Positions 2-8,001 of a stretch of 38,050 nucleotides of DNA are shown in pieces (position 1 is the first letter of the stretch; each line of letters begins with the position of its first letter). The stretch spans positions 1-38,050 of the forward strand of contig JAFAKE010000074.1 in NCBI GenBank assembly GCA_019235715.1, in the 5' to 3' direction. This DNA is from Vulcanimicrobiota bacterium (GTDB lineage Bacteria; Vulcanimicrobiota; Vulcanimicrobiia; Eremiobacterales; Eremiobacteraceae). The notes beneath the pieces are model-generated. The model made no database searches and was not told where the DNA came from. It saw only the letters and a program-made list of their open reading frames with translations. Position numbers and translations under genes: made by a program.

Positions 2-799
2 GCCGAAGGTATTGGCATGGCTGTCGGTGATGGCTGCATTGCTCACGGTTACCGCGGATCGAATAACACGAACCTCATCATTACTATGGGTAATGACGAG
101 CGCGACGTGCTGGCAACTGTAGCCGCCGGGATAAATGATCACAAACAACTCTTCGTCGACGGTCGAAGCAGGCGTGCCACGGCCGTATCATGGCCAAAGA
201 GCGCTGCAGGCTTCCGCATATCTATTGGTACCAGGGCTATCGTCGATCAGTTTGCGGAATTCGCGGTGCTTGACAAAGGCAGCAGCGAAAAGCGCTTCAC
301 CGAGGCGGTTTTTTCGCTCGACAAAGCAACACTCGCCGCGGTATTGAGGGGACTCTTCACCGCGGACGGCACCGTCGCAAATTACGGGGACAAGTCTCAG
401 TACGTGTCGCTTGATTCGTGCTCGCTTACCCTTCTGCAACAGGTTCAGTTGCTTTTGTTGTCCTTCGGAATAAAAGCGAAGATATATCGAAACAGGCGTT
501 CTGCCGGCGTTGCACTGCTCCCCGATGGCAAAGGTGGATCGCGTAAATATGCCGTCCGAGCGATGCACTCGTTGCGAATGTCCAAGAACTCGCGATTAGT
601 GTTTGAGGCAGAGATCGGATTTCATGCAGAGTCGACAAAAGCCAAGCAGCTTACGGCGATGAATGCCGGTGTTGCGTGCTACCAAGATGCGTTAACCGAT
701 GAGATCGCCGAGATTTCTCCTGACGGTTCGGCTGATGTTTTCGACCTGTGTGAGTACGACACTGCTCATTTTGTAGCCAACGGGCTACTCGTGCACAAC
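2..799 (+). mobile_element. Intein with LAGLIDADG homing endonuclease, 5' partial
   Basis: In-frame protein insertion in nrdJ. Two LAGLIDADG-type motifs are visible, [10 protein letters not shown] at nt 11-40 and [11 protein letters not shown] at about nt 344-376; both keep the metal-binding aspartate. The C-terminal splicing block reads [10 protein letters not shown], with the terminal His-Asn immediately before Cys+1 of the host at nt 800. The N-terminal splicing block lies outside the window. Base composition differs from the host: a hand count gives about 51% G+C in 421-540 against about 72% in 2221-2280, consistent with acquisition from elsewhere. Confidence 0.92.
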
Positions 800-3082
800 T
801 GCAGTGAGTATATGTTTTTGGATGACACAGCGTGCAACTTGAGCTCAATCAACTTGATGAAGTTCTACGATACCGATCGGAATCAATTCGACGTCGACAG
901 TTACCTGCACGCGATCCGCCTATGGACGGTCGTGCTCGAGATCTCGGTGCTCATGGCGCAGTTCCCGAGCCCTGAAATCGCGCGTAAGTCGTATGAGTAC
1001 CGCACGCTCGGATTGGGCTATGCGAACCTCGGCACGCTCCTTATGGTTTCCGGCATACCTTACGACTCGCCACGTGCACTGGCCATGGCAGGCGTCATTT
1101 CGGCGATGCTCACCGGTGAATCGTATGCCACATCAGCGGAAATGGCGCGCGACCAAGGCCCGTTCCCACGTTACAAAGAGAATGCGGATTCGATGTTGCG
1201 CGTGATGCGCAACCATCGCCGTGCCGCGTACAACTCTACCGCCTCAGAGTACGAAGAGCTGTCCGTCATCCCGATGGGCATCGATCCCTCGCTAGCGCCG
1301 CCGTACTTGCTCGCTGCAGCGCGCGACAGCTGGGACCGCGCCCTCGCGCTCGGCGAGCAGCACGGTTATCGAAACGCGCAAGCCACATGTATCGCGCCGA
1401 CCGGCACGATCGGCCTCGTCATGGACTGCGATACGACCGGCATCGAACCTGACTTCGCGCTTGTGAAATTCAAGAAGCTAGCAGGCGGCGGGTACTTCAA
1501 GATCATCAATGAGTCGATCCCCGAAGCGCTGCGCAATCTCGGCTATACGGAGACCCAGATCGAAGATATCGTGCGTTACGCCAAAGGCACCGGCTCACTG
1601 TACGGGGCTCCATATGTCAATGCCGAGACGCTCAAGGCGCGCGGCTTCAACGAGGACGATATCGCGAAGGTCGAAAAGGCGTTGCCATCGGCGTTTGAGA
1701 TAGGCTTTGCCTTCAACCAATTCACGCTTGGCGATCCGACCATGCAGCGGCTCGGTTTCGCACCCGAACACTATACCGCAGCCGACTTCGATCTCTTGCG
1801 ATCGCTAGGCTTTACACGCGAAGAGCTCGAGACCGCCAACAACTACATCTGCGGCACAATGACCACCGAAGGCGCGCCGCACCTCCAGGAAGAGCATTAC
1901 GCGGTCTTCGATTGTGCCAACAAATGCGGCAAGATCGGGCGACGCTTCATCCATCATATGGGCCACGTGCGCATGATGGCCTCAGCGCAACCGTTTATCA
2001 GCGGTGCGATCTCCAAAACGATCAACATGCCCAATGAAGCGACGGTCGACGACATCAAGGAAGCGTACATGCGCTCCTGGGAGCTCGGCATCAAAGCGAT
2101 GGCGCTCTATCGCGACGGTTCCAAGCTCTCGCAGCCACTCTCCAACAAGGGCACCGACAAGACCGCGCAGGACGAAGACAAGCAGCTCGCGCTTTCCGAG
2201 GAATTCGCGAAACAGCTCGAGGAGGCGCGCAAGCAGCGCGCTGAGGAACTGCGTCCTGACGAGATCCTCGCGGCGGCGCAGCGCATTCTCGCAAACACCA
2301 CATCGACCGAGTTCAAGCGCCAGTTCGCCAAGGCGATCGAGCGCAACCGGCTGCCGGCCAAGCGCCGCGGCTGGACCCAGAAAGCGAAGATCGCAGGGCA
2401 TACCGTCTTTCTGCGCACCGGCGAGTATTCTGACGGCACGCTCGGCGAGATCTTCGTCGATCTGCACAAAGAGGGCGCGTCGTTCCGCAGCCTCATGAAT
2501 TGCTTTGCGATAGCGGTTTCGATCGGCTTGCAATACGGTGTGCCGCTCGAGGAGTTCGTCGACAAGTTCGTATTCACGCGTTTCGAGCCCAATGGATTCG
2601 TCGACCATCCGAACATCAAGCACTGCACCAGCGTCATCGACTACATCTTCCGGGTGCTCGGCATGGAGTATCTCGGGCGCACCGACTTCGTCCAAGTCAA
2701 GCCGGAGGATCAAGACGTCGACGCGGTAGGCCATGAGGATGCCGCGCAAGCCGAATTCGAGGCGCGCGTCGCCGCACAACAAGCGAACGACGAGGTGAGC
2801 CGGTCCACCAAAGGCGATGCCGGCGGCGCGCCGGCGTCCAAATCGACATCGCGGCCGAAGGGGTCGAACGGAACTCACAACCCGCCGGTCCAAGCCTCGC
2901 AAACTGCTGCGATCATGGACCCGGGTCTCGCTGCGCAGCTCGCAGCCGTCCGCTCCCGCGAGGCGCAGATGGCAGCGATGATGGGCGATGCTCCGCTGTG
3001 CGATGTTTGCGGCTCGATCACGCGGCGCAACGGCGCGTGTTACGTCTGCGACAGCTGCGGACGAAGCATGGGCTGCTCGTAA
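2..3082 (+). CDS. nrdJ: Adenosylcobalamin-dependent (class II) ribonucleotide reductase with intein, 5' partial
   Basis: Reduces ribonucleotides to deoxyribonucleotides using a B12-generated thiyl radical, without needing oxygen. The reading frame is open to the left window edge, so the N-extein and the start of the intein are missing. Codons 1-266 of the visible part are intein; the C-extein begins at nt 800 with C-S-E-Y and, 11 residues later, the second cysteine of T-A-C-N-L. Further family signs are the C-I-A-P-T-G-T-I-G segment near nt 1387-1415, a TSCPD-type domain at about nt 2340-2690, a low-complexity linker, and a cysteine-rich C-terminal tail (C-x2-C, C-x2-C, ending G-C-S) that would serve as zinc ribbon and redox shuttle. 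A palindromic terminator-like hairpin follows 29 nt after the stop. Family assignment is firm; the product is functional only if the intein splices. Confidence 0.95.
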
Positions 3083-3759: not shown

Positions 3760-4215
3760 ATGACGATCCGCCGCTTCTCAACCGACGAGATCCCTTCTCT
3801 GCTCGATATGCGCCGTGCGATGACGCTCGAGCTCGACGGCAAAGACCTCGACGACGATCCGATCTGGCGCGACCGTTTCAGTGCATTCCTCCTCGAGCTG
3901 CTCGACAAGAACGAAACGATGTACTTCGTCGCCGAGCACGATGGAGCGCTTGTCGGCATGGGCGGGGTTTACAAATTGCGCAACCATCGCAGCGTGATCT
4001 ACGGCCAGCCGTCGGCATACGTGACCAGCGTCTACGTCATGCCCGCACACCGGCGCAACGGGATCGCACGCGCGATCACGCAAGCGACGGTCGATTGGGC
4101 GCGTGAAAACGGATGCGTCGTCGTGCGCCTGCGCGCATCCCGAATGGGCCGCATGGTGTATGAAGCGATGGGCTTCACGCCGACCGAAGAACTGGAACTG
4201 CCGCTGACGCGCTAG
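3760..4215 (+). CDS. GNAT-family N-acetyltransferase
   Basis: Cytoplasmic acetyl-CoA-dependent acetyltransferase of 151 residues, a full-length single GNAT domain. The central strand V-T-S-V-Y-V-M-P and the pyrophosphate-binding loop H-R-R-N-G-I-A (about residues 92-103) are canonical, followed by the helix with A-R-E-N-G-C and the closing strand with Y-E-A-M-G-F. The substrate cannot be told from sequence. The stop codon sits in a CTAG tetranucleotide shared with the stop of the convergent hydrolase gene. Confidence 0.88.
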   Translation: MTIRRFSTDEIPSLLDMRRAMTLELDGKDLDDDPIWRDRFSAFLLELLDKNETMYFVAEHDGALVGMGGVYKLRNHRSVIYGQPSAYVTSVYVMPAHRRNGIARAITQATVDWARENGCVVVRLRASRMGRMVYEAMGFTPTEELELPLTR

Positions 4216-5972
4216 ATCTTGGCGCGCACGATATCGGCGATCCTCAAGAGCGTGCTCTGCAAGTTCGTGCGACCATCGGACAGACGCGCGACCGGATCGA
4301 ACATGCCGCCGGGCACTTGATGACCGACCGGACCGAGCGAGATCCACTCGATGATGCCGCGCTTGCGCGCGCGGTTCCAATACGAGTTCCACACGATCTT
4401 CCAGCGCGACGCGAACAAGAGAGGTCCTAAGCGCTCGACATTATCTTTATCGCCGACGAGGTGGTGAAGGTGCTCCAAGTCCAGGAAATTGCTCGTGCCG
4501 CTCATGACGCCGCCAAGTGAGATCACCTCGATCGGCGCACCGATGGCACGTTTCAAGAACGTCGCCGCCGCCGCGGACATCTGACCGCCGCCGCTGTAGC
4601 CGACAAGCGTGACCGGCACGCCGCTGCCGACCGGATAGCCGTTATCAACCAGTCCCTCGTAGAGCAGCTTGGCGATCCCGTAGTTGTAGATCGGTCCGTA
4701 GCGCGAGTCTGCGGACACCGCGACGATGATCACGTTGCGCAGGTTGATGAACATACCGAGGATGCTGGCGGGATCCGCGAGCCTCGTCTTTTCGACGATG
4801 CGCCAAAAGCTCGACCAGATCGGATCTTGGTCGAGCGGCTTGTTGAGCACCGAATAGACCATCAGTCCGCGCAGCAAGCAGATGCGCGGAGGCAGTGTCG
4901 GCTCGAGGGCGTCCAAGAAGTTTTCGACGTCGGGCGTGTACTGCGAACTCGACTGGCCGATCCCGTCAAGGTAGATCATGTAGCGCGAGATGCCGGCTGC
5001 ACCCGGTCCAGCGACGTGCGCCGCGTTCGGGGCGATGTCGTCTCCGTACCACCCGGCCCACCAGCCAAGCGTTTCCAGCGGCGCAAGAAGCGCAGCGACA
5101 AGTGCCGCCACGAGACCGAACCAGAGCAGATCGAACGGCACCCGCAGCGGCGCCGGCAAGTGTACGGTCCAGCCGAACATCAGCGACTGCAACGGACGGA
5201 AGGCGACCGCGATCACCACGCAGATGACGATAAAGCCAAGCAGTCCTGCGACGACTTGCCAGCGCCCGGTCAGCGGGTGCAACTGCTTATGCGCGCGCAC
5301 GGCGCTGGCTGACGGCTGCTGCCCCTGCGCCTGGGATTGCTGCGCAAGCTCGAGTGCCCTGCTTTCTTCCGGTTGGAAGCTGACGCCGGAAACCGCGCTC
5401 ATCACCCTCAGTCCGAAAAGCAGGATCGGTTTGCCAAGCGTCTGTCGCGCCGCGACAAAAACCAGCCAACCCACGCCGACGTACAGAATTGCGTACTGCA
5501 GCGGCAGATCGCCGACCGCGGCAACGCCGACCAACGATGCCAGCAAGTACCAGATGCGCAGTCCCGAGCCGATCGCCAGGCCCGCGTATGGCAGCGCTTC
5601 AAGAAATGCGAAAAGCAGCGGTGCGTATGAGACAGCGTAAACGATTGCAAGTGAGCGCAGCGGGATGCGGGTCGCCAGCGGCAGATACGTGATCGCCCAC
5701 GTCGACAGCGTCAAGAAGACGTAGGAAAACACGAACAAGACCGCCGTGATAGCCAGACTGTACGCGAAACGCGCGGGCGGGATGCGGTTCGCGAACAGCA
5801 CGACCGATTGCCCGATCGCTTCGGAGAGTCCGGCGAGCACGACGATCGCCAACGCGACGAGAATGGAATCTTTAAGCGCAAGACTCGCGACGAACGCGTG
5901 TGGATTGAGCTCGAACACGCCGCGCAAGGTCGCCCACAAGTCGGGCGCCAGAGCTTGGACCGGATGATTCAT
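4212..5972 (-). CDS. Multi-pass membrane protein fused to an alpha/beta-hydrolase-like domain
   Basis: A 586-residue two-part protein. Residues 1-200 resemble a YIP1-type membrane domain with about five hydrophobic segments (around 35-60, 70-100, 108-130, 140-155, 158-176). Two more membrane segments lie at about 238-258 and 278-300. The C-terminal 260 residues carry a soluble domain beginning Y-M-I-Y-L-D-G-I-G-Q. It contains the nucleophile elbow V-T-L-V-G-Y-S-G-G-G (Ser460) and a late histidine in G-P-V-G-H-Q-V-P-G-G (His551), so a serine-hydrolase triad is plausible. No characterised enzyme with this arrangement comes to mind; the substrate may be a lipid or other membrane-associated ester. 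It starts 6 nt after the stop of the DUF4239 gene and is probably co-transcribed with it. Confidence 0.75.
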   Translation of the reverse strand: MNHPVQALAPDLWATLRGVFELNPHAFVASLALKDSILVALAIVVLAGLSEAIGQSVVLFANRIPPARFAYSLAITAVLFVFSYVFLTLSTWAITYLPLATRIPLRSLAIVYAVSYAPLLFAFLEALPYAGLAIGSGLRIWYLLASLVGVAAVGDLPLQYAILYVGVGWLVFVAARQTLGKPILLFGLRVMSAVSGVSFQPEESRALELAQQSQAQGQQPSASAVRAHKQLHPLTGRWQVVAGLLGFIVICVVIAVAFRPLQSLMFGWTVHLPAPLRVPFDLLWFGLVAALVAALLAPLETLGWWAGWYGDDIAPNAAHVAGPGAAGISRYMIYLDGIGQSSSQYTPDVENFLDALEPTLPPRICLLRGLMVYSVLNKPLDQDPIWSSFWRIVEKTRLADPASILGMFINLRNVIIVAVSADSRYGPIYNYGIAKLLYEGLVDNGYPVGSGVPVTLVGYSGGGQMSAAAATFLKRAIGAPIEVISLGGVMSGTSNFLDLEHLHHLVGDKDNVERLGPLLFASRWKIVWNSYWNRARKRGIIEWISLGPVGHQVPGGMFDPVARLSDGRTNLQSTLLRIADIVRAKI

Positions 5973-5978
5973 AGGCGC

Positions 5979-6773
5979 TTAGTGCGCTGACGCCGGACCC
6001 GGATAGGGCAGTTCCAACTCTTGCACGACGTCCTGCAACGGCGTCACCGGCACGCGGATGTACCCACGCTGCGGACGATCGAGATCGAGAATCGTCGCCA
6101 GCGTCAGCGCCAGCATCCCTGCGAATAACACGAACGGACCGATTTCAAACCGGCCCAGTCGTGCGAAGTCTGCCCCGAGCAGCGCTGCGGCGAGCAAGAT
6201 TACGCCGACGACGATCGCCAGCACCGCCCCGGGAATGACCGCGTTCAAAGCAGCAGCCTGCTCGCCTGCCATATCGATCGCGTTGTTGAGCGTCTGGATG
6301 AACAGCGGCACCATCGTCGAGTGAGGGTCTTTGGCCGCCGCCCGCATGGCAAGCGCCCACATCTTCACTTGCAGCGTGTGGCTGCGGGACCCCGGCTCCT
6401 CGCGCGCATTTGGCCGCGTGCCGGCCTTCGCGAAATCGAGCCTCGCCACAGAGTATGCGCGCAGCAAGCCCCACATCTTCCTGCCGTCCGCCGCATCCAA
6501 GAGCGGCACGCGCAAGGCGGTCGTGCCAATGGCATTGGCTTCTTGGACCGTGATCTCGCGCCGCTGGTCAAAGCGCGACACAGCGAGCGAAAAGGAGAAG
6601 CCGAGGAGCAGCCCGACCAAGCCGAATGCGGCGGCCTGAATGACGCCGAATGGCGCATCGTCCTTGTCGCGATCGCGCATGTAGCGGCCGAAGGCAAAGC
6701 CGCCGACGCCGAACAGTCCGATCAACAGCAAGACGGCGACCGTCGCGCTGACGATCGTCATGTCATTCAACAT
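5979..6773 (-). CDS. DUF4239 (bestrophin-like) membrane protein
   Basis: A 264-residue protein with two N-terminal membrane helices (about residues 5-28 and 40-65), a soluble helical middle and two C-terminal membrane helices. The segment G-L-L-L-G-F-S-F-S-L-A followed by F-D-Q-R-R and V-Q-E-A-N-A-I-G-T-T is the typical DUF4239 signature; this family is remotely related to bestrophin channels, but its role is unproven. The frame extends to 6917, but that extension lacks similarity and overlaps the divergent gene's upstream region; the ATG at 6773 (M-L-N-D-M) is preferred, with 6761 as an alternative. First gene of a two-gene unit with the membrane hydrolase. Confidence 0.8.
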   Translation of the reverse strand: MLNDMTIVSATVAVLLLIGLFGVGGFAFGRYMRDRDKDDAPFGVIQAAAFGLVGLLLGFSFSLAVSRFDQRREITVQEANAIGTTALRVPLLDAADGRKMWGLLRAYSVARLDFAKAGTRPNAREEPGSRSHTLQVKMWALAMRAAAKDPHSTMVPLFIQTLNNAIDMAGEQAAALNAVIPGAVLAIVVGVILLAAALLGADFARLGRFEIGPFVLFAGMLALTLATILDLDRPQRGYIRVPVTPLQDVVQELELPYPGPASAH

Positions 6774-6894
6774 GACGGCAAAGTGCGCTGCATGACGCGG
6801 TGCATGTGCTGTCAGCTTTTGGGCGCGCACGCCTCCTCCTGCCCGGAGCGCGAGCCAAGCAGGAATCATCTGCGCAGCGCGGACAGAGGTGCCT

Positions 6895-8001
6895 ATGCCC
6901 GTTTCCGGTCCTCGCATCGCAAGCGCGAGCTTCTACGCGAGCTTCCTCTTCGATGTCGCCGACACGATCGACCTCACCAAGCTCGGCAGCATCGCCGGCG
7001 AAGACACGGCGCCGGCGCCCTTGCGCTTCCGGGCGGCCAGCACGCCGGAGAATATCCAGTTCGCCGTGCCTCCCGTCGCCGCAAACCTTCCAACCATCGC
7101 ATTCGACGGCGTCAGCGCGAGCGCACGTGCGAAGATCTACGATTACGGCGTCGTCTCCATACGTTTTGCGGTCCCGTACTCAGGTGATTGGTCCGGTTTT
7201 ATCGATCTCGTCATCGGTTTGCGCGCGGGCGACCGCCTGCTCCATCATGCACGTACGATCCTCGACGGCATTCTGCGCGACTGCGCCAGCGCGCTGGTTG
7301 AACCGCATCCGACCCTTGTCGAAGACTATTTCACCGCCGCGATTGAAGAACTCGACGTTCCACTCGACGCCGCCGCTCTGCTTGCGAACTACGGCGCGGC
7401 CATCGTGGGCTTGATCTCGGCGGAACACCAACCGCTTTCACCCGAAGAGCAAACTGAGACGCTGCGGCTGCGCTTCAGCTACCTGCCTGACGATCTCGTC
7501 GTCGTGCAGTGGGATTCCGCTTTCATCTACGACAGCCGTGAACACGCGCAGGTCATCGTCGATCTGCTCGAATTCGCCAATTCGCAACTCGTCGAGTTCC
7601 GCACGTACGACGCCCGGCTGGATCAAGAGCTCGATGCGATCTACCCCGCCGAGGTCGCGCCGCGGCCGCGCTGGTCGGCGCTTCACCGCCGTCAAGCGGA
7701 GGAGCGCGCGCAGGAGCTGCGCTATCTGCTCGTCGATATCCGCGAGCTCGCGGACCGCGCAAGCAACGCGCTCAAGATCGTCGGCGACGCATACTACGCA
7801 CGCGTCTATCGCGCGATCGCGCAACGGCTCGGGCTGGACGTGTGGCAACGCCAGATCGAAAGCAAACTCGATGCCGTCGGCGATGTGTACCGCTACTTCA
7901 CGGACCAGGCACAGACCGCGCGCAGCGAGTTTCTCGAGCTGATCGTCATATTGCTCATCGCGATCGAGATCGTCGTCGGCATCCTTGGTCTACGTCATTG
8001 A
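6895..8001 (+). CDS. RMD1/YagE (DUF155)-like protein with C-terminal membrane anchor
   Basis: A 368-residue protein. The order of features fits the RMD1/DUF155 family: a region with Y-D-Y-G-V-V-S-I-R-F, then L-P-D-D-L-V-V-V-Q-W-D-S-A-F-I-Y-D, then a helical part with L-L-E-F-A-N-S-Q-L-V-E-F-R-T-Y-D and L-D-Q-E-L-D. It ends in one hydrophobic helix (L-I-V-I-L-L-I-A-I-E-I-V-V-G-I-L-G) that would tail-anchor it. Eukaryotic members act in mitochondria or sporulation; the bacterial role is unknown. ATG 6895 has an AGAGG at about 6884-6888; a GTG at 6889 is possible. It diverges from the DUF4239 gene across about 120 nt. Confidence 0.68.
   Translation: MPVSGPRIASASFYASFLFDVADTIDLTKLGSIAGEDTAPAPLRFRAASTPENIQFAVPPVAANLPTIAFDGVSASARAKIYDYGVVSIRFAVPYSGDWSGFIDLVIGLRAGDRLLHHARTILDGILRDCASALVEPHPTLVEDYFTAAIEELDVPLDAAALLANYGAAIVGLISAEHQPLSPEEQTETLRLRFSYLPDDLVVVQWDSAFIYDSREHAQVIVDLLEFANSQLVEFRTYDARLDQELDAIYPAEVAPRPRWSALHRRQAEERAQELRYLLVDIRELADRASNALKIVGDAYYARVYRAIAQRLGLDVWQRQIESKLDAVGDVYRYFTDQAQTARSEFLELIVILLIAIEIVVGILGLRH

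Follow-up and report, generated by a model that had tools for sequence, protein, structure and literature searches.

A membrane bundle of Yip1 type joined to an alpha/beta-hydrolase domain is encoded by a single gene in the window analysed here, a stretch of 38,050 nucleotides from a Vulcanimicrobiota bacterium (contig JAFAKE010000074.1); the hydrolase domain has the expected fold and strand order with three invariant candidate catalytic residues, the membrane half is homologous by profile to bacterial Yip1 proteins, and the two halves, which we call part A and part B, remain linked across phyla whether fused or separate (Table 1). We consider it somewhat more probable than the contrary that the product hydrolyzes acyl esters of lipids while tethered to the membrane, its Yip1 bundle serving to position either the enzyme or the substrate.

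The gene at 4212-5972 (-) is real. The open reading frame starts with ATG, encodes 586 residues and has exactly these limits, and the gene is present once in its 2.5-Mb genome, which the nearest named loci and the hydrolase tree assign to Eremiobacterota; because full-length relatives (approximately 43-73% identical) occur in other genomes, and because comparison with the copy in a genome of the same genus (G002, 73% amino acid identity) gives a dN/dS of 0.24 (NG86), indicating purifying selection, the gene is more than a chance reading frame. By region, the same comparison gives 0.17 for the hydrolase part and 0.39 for the linker region. A GNAT acetyltransferase gene lies tail to tail with the window gene, overlapping it by 4 bp, and a bestrophin-like gene lies just upstream and is probably co-transcribed with it. 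The same two neighbors flank the gene in G002, and of all loci compared only those of G001 and G002, which belong to the genus of the window, share the bestrophin-like neighbor; since its adjacency is so limited, we do not regard it as a core part of the system.

Table 1. Features of the window gene and its upstream neighbor (window coordinates; residue numbers refer to the window protein)
Feature	Position	Strand	Basis
Whole gene, 586 aa: Yip1-like bundle, two additional membrane helices, alpha/beta-hydrolase	4212..5972	-	ORF, homologs, AlphaFold2 model
Part A, residues 1-195, Yip1-like domain, five predicted membrane helices	5388..5972	-	AlphaFold2; hhalign with Yip1 proteins
Linker, residues 196-232, variable, low confidence	5277..5387	-	pLDDT 47-70 by block; poorly conserved
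Sixth membrane helix, residues 233-257	5202..5276	-	AlphaFold2; precedes the segment that corresponds to the only membrane helix of split B proteins
Seventh membrane helix, residues 274-308	5049..5153	-	Counterpart of the N-terminal anchor in separate B proteins
WWAGWY juxtamembrane motif, residues 304-309	5046..5063	-	Also conserved in split B proteins
Part B, residues 324-586, alpha/beta-hydrolase domain	4215..5003	-	VIA-align rows span 303-586, best Z 13.1
Asp336-Gly337 loop after first strand, candidate oxyanion-hole region	4962..4967	-	Gly 62/62, Asp 49/62
D-S-R-Y-G-P-I-Y-N, residues 422-430	4683..4709	-	Asp422, Arg424, Tyr425, Tyr429, Asn430 invariant 62/62
Ser460, predicted nucleophile	4593..4595	-	62/62; strand-turn-helix position
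Asp510, predicted catalytic acid	4443..4445	-	62/62; after strand 501-506
His551, predicted catalytic histidine	4320..4322	-	62/62; after strand 541-545
Bestrophin-like domain (PF14023) gene	5979..6917	-	Same strand, 6 bp upstream of window gene

An AlphaFold2 model of the window protein (mean pLDDT 86.0, pTM 0.83) was built on an 80-row alignment, A2, in which the window protein is joined by 41 of the 46 references that are fused, 18 of the 27 with A only, and 20 of the 33 with B only. The model bears out the seven or so membrane segments counted in the first-pass annotation: seven long helices (residues 36-61, 66-94, 105-126 with a break, 130-154, 158-195, 233-257, and 274-308) precede the alpha/beta domain. 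That annotation had also called the membrane half YIP1-like, and hhalign against bacterial Yip1 proteins agrees (99.1% probability, E 4.5e-19, over 160 columns). A profile that includes the membrane half also finds standalone Yip1-like proteins in Chloroflexota, and all four of those scanned pass the PF04893 (Yip1) cut-off. Within the family itself, PF04893 is matched at E <= 0.1 by only 4 of the 80 members (E 1.8e-5 at best); of the relatives scanned one by one, the highest-scoring reaches 23.0 bits where the cut-off is 28.6, and the window protein matches no Pfam family at E <= 1 and lies below the reporting threshold of PF04893. We therefore file part A as Yip1-like, the profile match being good but the curated cut-off not being reached, and there is good support at the level of sequence profiles for reading the first five helices as a divergent Yip1-like domain. 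Such a domain would share with the Yip1/YIPF proteins the five-helix membrane architecture, but differs from them in its sub-threshold score, in its fusion to a hydrolase, and in a topology that the charge pattern suggests may be inverted.

The soluble half is supported as an alpha/beta-hydrolase fold carrying a candidate Ser/Asp/His triad in the canonical order. In the model, the GYSGGG motif containing Ser460 forms an elbow between strand 454-459 and helix 461-477, and the order of nucleophile, acid, and histidine is matched along strands 454-459, 501-506, and 541-545. The serine and the late histidine singled out by the earlier reading thus occupy the expected places, and Asp510 supplies the acidic residue that it had left unnamed; all three are invariant in the 62 aligned rows that cover them, the remaining 18 of 80 rows being A-only. 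Gly337, Asn413, Asp422, Arg424, Tyr425, Tyr429, Asn430, Gly461, Gly462, Gly488, and Trp532 are equally invariant (62/62). Structural comparison by VIA-align likewise upholds the label "serine-hydrolase-like": the best match to the soluble half has a Z of 13.1 (200 residues, 4.0 A) and 676 of 1000 chains reach Z >= 8, the rows listed being mainly carboxylesterases, dienelactone hydrolases, lipases, and acyl thioesterases (TesA, the Pks13 TE, and human PPT1), with ClbQ also among them. No single family stands out, the top rows being tied at Z 11.6-13.1. Foldseek found no PDB match to the window protein at E <= 0.001; esterases and acyl thioesterases head its list with probabilities up to 1.00, none at that threshold. 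The Pfam Thioesterase family is weakly matched by 14 of the 80 members (E 9.6e-4 at best); the window protein has no match at the Thioesterase (PF00975) cut-off, and the best listed relative scores 20.1 bits against 26.4. The window protein thus resembles the alpha/beta-hydrolase esterases and thioesterases (TesA, carboxylesterases, dienelactone hydrolases) in fold, strand order, and the positions of Ser, Asp, and His, but differs from those branches in being embedded in the membrane by seven helices, in matching no curated subfamily, and in its private invariant residues Asn413, Asp422, Arg424, Tyr425, Tyr429, Asn430, and Trp532.

The first-pass annotation could match this architecture to no characterized enzyme, and neither could we in the family libraries, the PDB sequences, and the literature searched. 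Although several phyla contain the unit, no scanned member, the window protein included, reaches a curated Pfam or NCBIfam cut-off over either part. PDB sequences gave no match for the window protein, and the A2 profile gave only weak matches to membrane helices, coiled coils, and nucleophile elbows; the sole NCBIfam match to the window protein, MamB, was rejected as chance at 12 bits. The PADLOC-DB anti-phage defense profiles matched the window protein and two relatives with no family; viral contigs scanned for relatives held none, so that no phage link was found. The diacylglycerol lipases DAGLA and DAGLB offer an analogy by architecture alone, an N-terminal helical bundle being followed by an alpha/beta-hydrolase that acts on membrane lipids; their membrane part is not, to our knowledge, known as Yip1. 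Both are listed as AB-hydrolase lipases in a five-TM dataset (PMC8327215). The fusion of Yip1 and hydrolase was not found described in the literature searched, which consisted of open-licence papers; the parts are of known kinds, and their pairing appears to be undescribed there.

Relatives are distributed over Eremiobacterota, Cyanobacteria, Chloroflexota, and a few further phyla, 215 having passed in a scan of approximately 85,000 species genomes. Among the best 80 of these 215 loci, i) A, B, and an additional C-terminal domain C form a single ORF at 42; ii) A is separate and B joined to C at 12; iii) A and B are separate and C is missing at 15; iv) B stands alone at one (L118), in whose genome a whole-genome search places A on a different contig; and v) the remaining 10 are cut by contig ends or have a shortened or partial C. 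Wherever A and B are separate ORFs (27 of the best 80 loci) they are adjacent on one strand, with overlapping stop and start in 12 of the 27; at L097 and L102 the two overlap in different frames, which may reflect frameshifts. Whole-genome searches extend the association. Of 146 cyanobacterial genomes (the centre included), 14 have B and 13 of these have A, G396 being the one exception; among the 132 genomes lacking B, A occurs in only 2, as ordinary Yip1-like proteins. Seven cyanobacterial pairs form a set of loci of their own, arranged head-to-head on opposite strands (G102:C61, G260:C81, G263:C77, G294:C89, G317:C20, G354:C1, and G384:C6). Two of 151 Chloroflexota genomes have B, with A adjoining in both; A-like, ordinary Yip1-like proteins occur without B in 11, and in one more genome the match is confined to 37 residues of the anchor region. 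A Trueperaceae genome has several A/B pairs, and on rhizobial and actinobacterial replicons a shorter A-like gene directly precedes B (in NGR234 it was found by profile, E 5e-5). Because A and B are found fused, overlapping, or head-to-head across phyla, they behave as one functional unit.

We infer from these observations how such a unit might work. The five-helix Yip1-type bundle and the two-helix connector would hold the hydrolase domain tight to the membrane, a hold that the Trp-rich juxtamembrane motif would mediate; Ser460-His551-Asp510 would most likely attack an acyl ester, and less likely a thioester; the substrate, whether a lipid or some different hydrophobic molecule, would be reached from within the bilayer; and the bundle would bind, orient, or laterally feed that substrate, or else set the location of the enzyme in the membrane. 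Hydrolysis of an acyl ester or thioester is likely because a conserved candidate triad sits in an esterase/thioesterase-like fold, and a substrate derived from the bilayer is favored because the membrane bundle stays with the enzyme, fused or not, and because the Trp-rich motif between anchor and domain is conserved. A membrane or envelope substrate, which the earlier reading had proposed, would be plausible. A possible but doubtful generalization is that some bacterial Yip1-type proteins serve specifically as partners for serine hydrolases that act on lipids. A and B, split or fused, would then make up a widespread and unnamed system of two parts for editing membrane lipids, the Yip1 bundle offering the hydrolase its substrate out of the bilayer. 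If so, a membrane fold of unclear bacterial function would acquire a concrete biochemical role; that a Yip1 bundle is linked to a serine hydrolase makes the role of bacterial Yip1 proteins testable.

The likeliest alternative, which we nevertheless judge improbable, is that the membrane part is a mere anchor and that the substrate of the hydrolase is soluble or bound to a carrier, such as acyl-CoA, acyl-ACP, or a thioester of polyketide type. The weak Thioesterase matches in 14 of 80 members and the appearance of TesA, the Pks13 TE, and ClbQ among the VIA-align rows are what one would expect of such an enzyme, but a seven-helix part with a conserved Yip1 bundle exceeds the needs of an anchor, and separate A proteins still travel with B even though separate B proteins possess an anchor of their own.

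For the side of the membrane on which the proposed lipid hydrolase would work there is only a weak leaning, the charge counts being in conflict. A cytosolic hydrolase domain is favored because 16 of the 17 separate B proteins have no Lys or Arg ahead of their anchor, and by the positive loop between helices 1 and 2 of part A (net charge +2.4); it is disfavored by the acidic stretch after helix 7 (net charge -3.1) and by the topology of eukaryotic Yip1 proteins, N-cytosolic and C-luminal according to PMC6682643, which would put the domain outside. The charge pattern points to an outside N-terminus for part A and the opposite after helix 7, and we weakly infer that the domain faces the cytosol.

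An improbable alternative is a structural rather than metabolic role, in which a Yip1-based device for membrane shaping or trafficking would employ the hydrolase to remodel lipids locally, altering curvature or composition. The profile homology to Yip1 would suit such a device, as would the large share of cyanobacteria among the carriers, since these bacteria possess internal membranes. Eukaryotic Yip1 proteins oligomerize and act in vesicle formation, according to PMC6682643, but the bacterial unit is also found in Chloroflexota, on rhizobial replicons, and in Eremiobacterota.

Gene neighborhoods bear on both the lipid substrate and the kind of chemistry. An all-against-all comparison of flanking ORFs from 82 loci returned chiefly overlapping-frame ORFs, local synteny, and common families, and no conserved partner gene in Cyanobacteria or Eremiobacterota; an alpha/beta-hydrolase gene recurs beside A/B in four Chloroflexota loci (L115, L119, L120, and L121). 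Since neighbors are not conserved in Cyanobacteria and Eremiobacterota, the case for a lipid draws on the architecture and on a handful of remote relatives. In 4 of 5 rhizobial and actinobacterial loci examined (L029, L031, L138, and L139) a UDP-glycosyltransferase gene precedes the A-like gene and B, the glycosyltransferases of L138 and L139 being assigned by resemblance to those scanned. These glycosyltransferase neighbors, with the patatin-like neighbor in one of the loci, are a thin hint of lipid or hydrophobic-metabolite chemistry. The glycosyltransferase genes also give some substance to a quite improbable alternative, that the catalytic domain is an acyltransferase moving acyl groups between lipids or onto a sugar that the neighboring glycosyltransferase makes. 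Some enzymes of the alpha/beta-hydrolase fold do transfer acyl groups, but fold and triad do not tell transfer from hydrolysis, and the main clades show no glycosyltransferase neighbor.

On these Nonomuraea, Microvirga, and Sinorhizobium replicons the three-gene set (approximately 4000-6800 in each locus) consists of an MGT-type UDP-glycosyltransferase, a short Yip1-like membrane gene, and the hydrolase; a patatin-like gene precedes it in L029 and a DUF900 hydrolase follows it in L031. The fifth locus, L030, does not show this arrangement and looks degraded: in this pSymA copy of S. meliloti ABS7 (L030:5854-6606) the match ends at query residue 488 and Gly replaces the nucleophile Ser (YGGGAQ). 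Eight S. meliloti records have the same partial match.

Most fused relatives are larger than the window protein. Those of cyanobacteria and Eremiobacterota have the same A and B parts (approximately 43-58% identical), but extend to some 1200 residues (about 1170-1290) by the additional C-terminal domain C of approximately 600 residues, which is absent from the three genomes of the window's genus that were searched (G000, G001, and G002, of which G001 is an incomplete genome whose copy of the gene is cut by a contig end). No convincing remnant of C lies near the window gene, the best tblastn match (E 0.004) being far from it. In Chloroflexota loci, two-part versions lacking C are the rule. That the window protein is a decaying remnant left by loss of C is hardly credible: the absence of C from all three genomes, with no convincing trace nearby, is what decay might leave, but 586 residues retain an intact frame, the candidate triad, and purifying selection (the dN/dS of 0.24 against G002 making the shortened protein look functional), and two-part proteins are normal in Chloroflexota.

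A maximum-likelihood tree of 68 hydrolase domains, rooted at the midpoint, unites all Eremiobacterota copies in one clade (97/93), whose nearest partners are some of the cyanobacterial sequences (96/91), so that it lies within their overall range. On a simple reading of this midpoint-rooted tree, the sequences suggest that the gene passed between Cyanobacteria and Eremiobacterota and that a whole domain was lost afterward.

Domain C itself, located in L050-L114 (for example, L051:9762-11510), was modeled with a pLDDT of 85.7 and a pTM of 0.90; its alignment, A3, holds 49 of 57 C references. It matches no Pfam family with support and no PDB sequence convincingly, and its fold has no Foldseek match at E <= 0.001 and a best VIA Z of 3.7. 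An invariant Cys (C448) and His (H334; model numbering) are reminiscent of permuted papain-type sites and might form one.

Three further observations concern the surroundings of the window gene. The bestrophin-like gene probably begins downstream of its listed start, because matches within the genus set in near residue 78, and a start there would abolish its overlap with the divergent gene at 6889. That gene (6889-8001, +) encodes a 370-residue protein with a hydrophobic segment at its C-terminal end, matched by no Pfam model and 76-81% identical in G001 and G002. Finally, an ORF at 17-3082 (+), which we take to be ribonucleotide-reductase-like, apparently starts within an intein (it ends ...LLVHNC, whereupon the reductase resumes), and its G002 homolog seems to hold several inteins.
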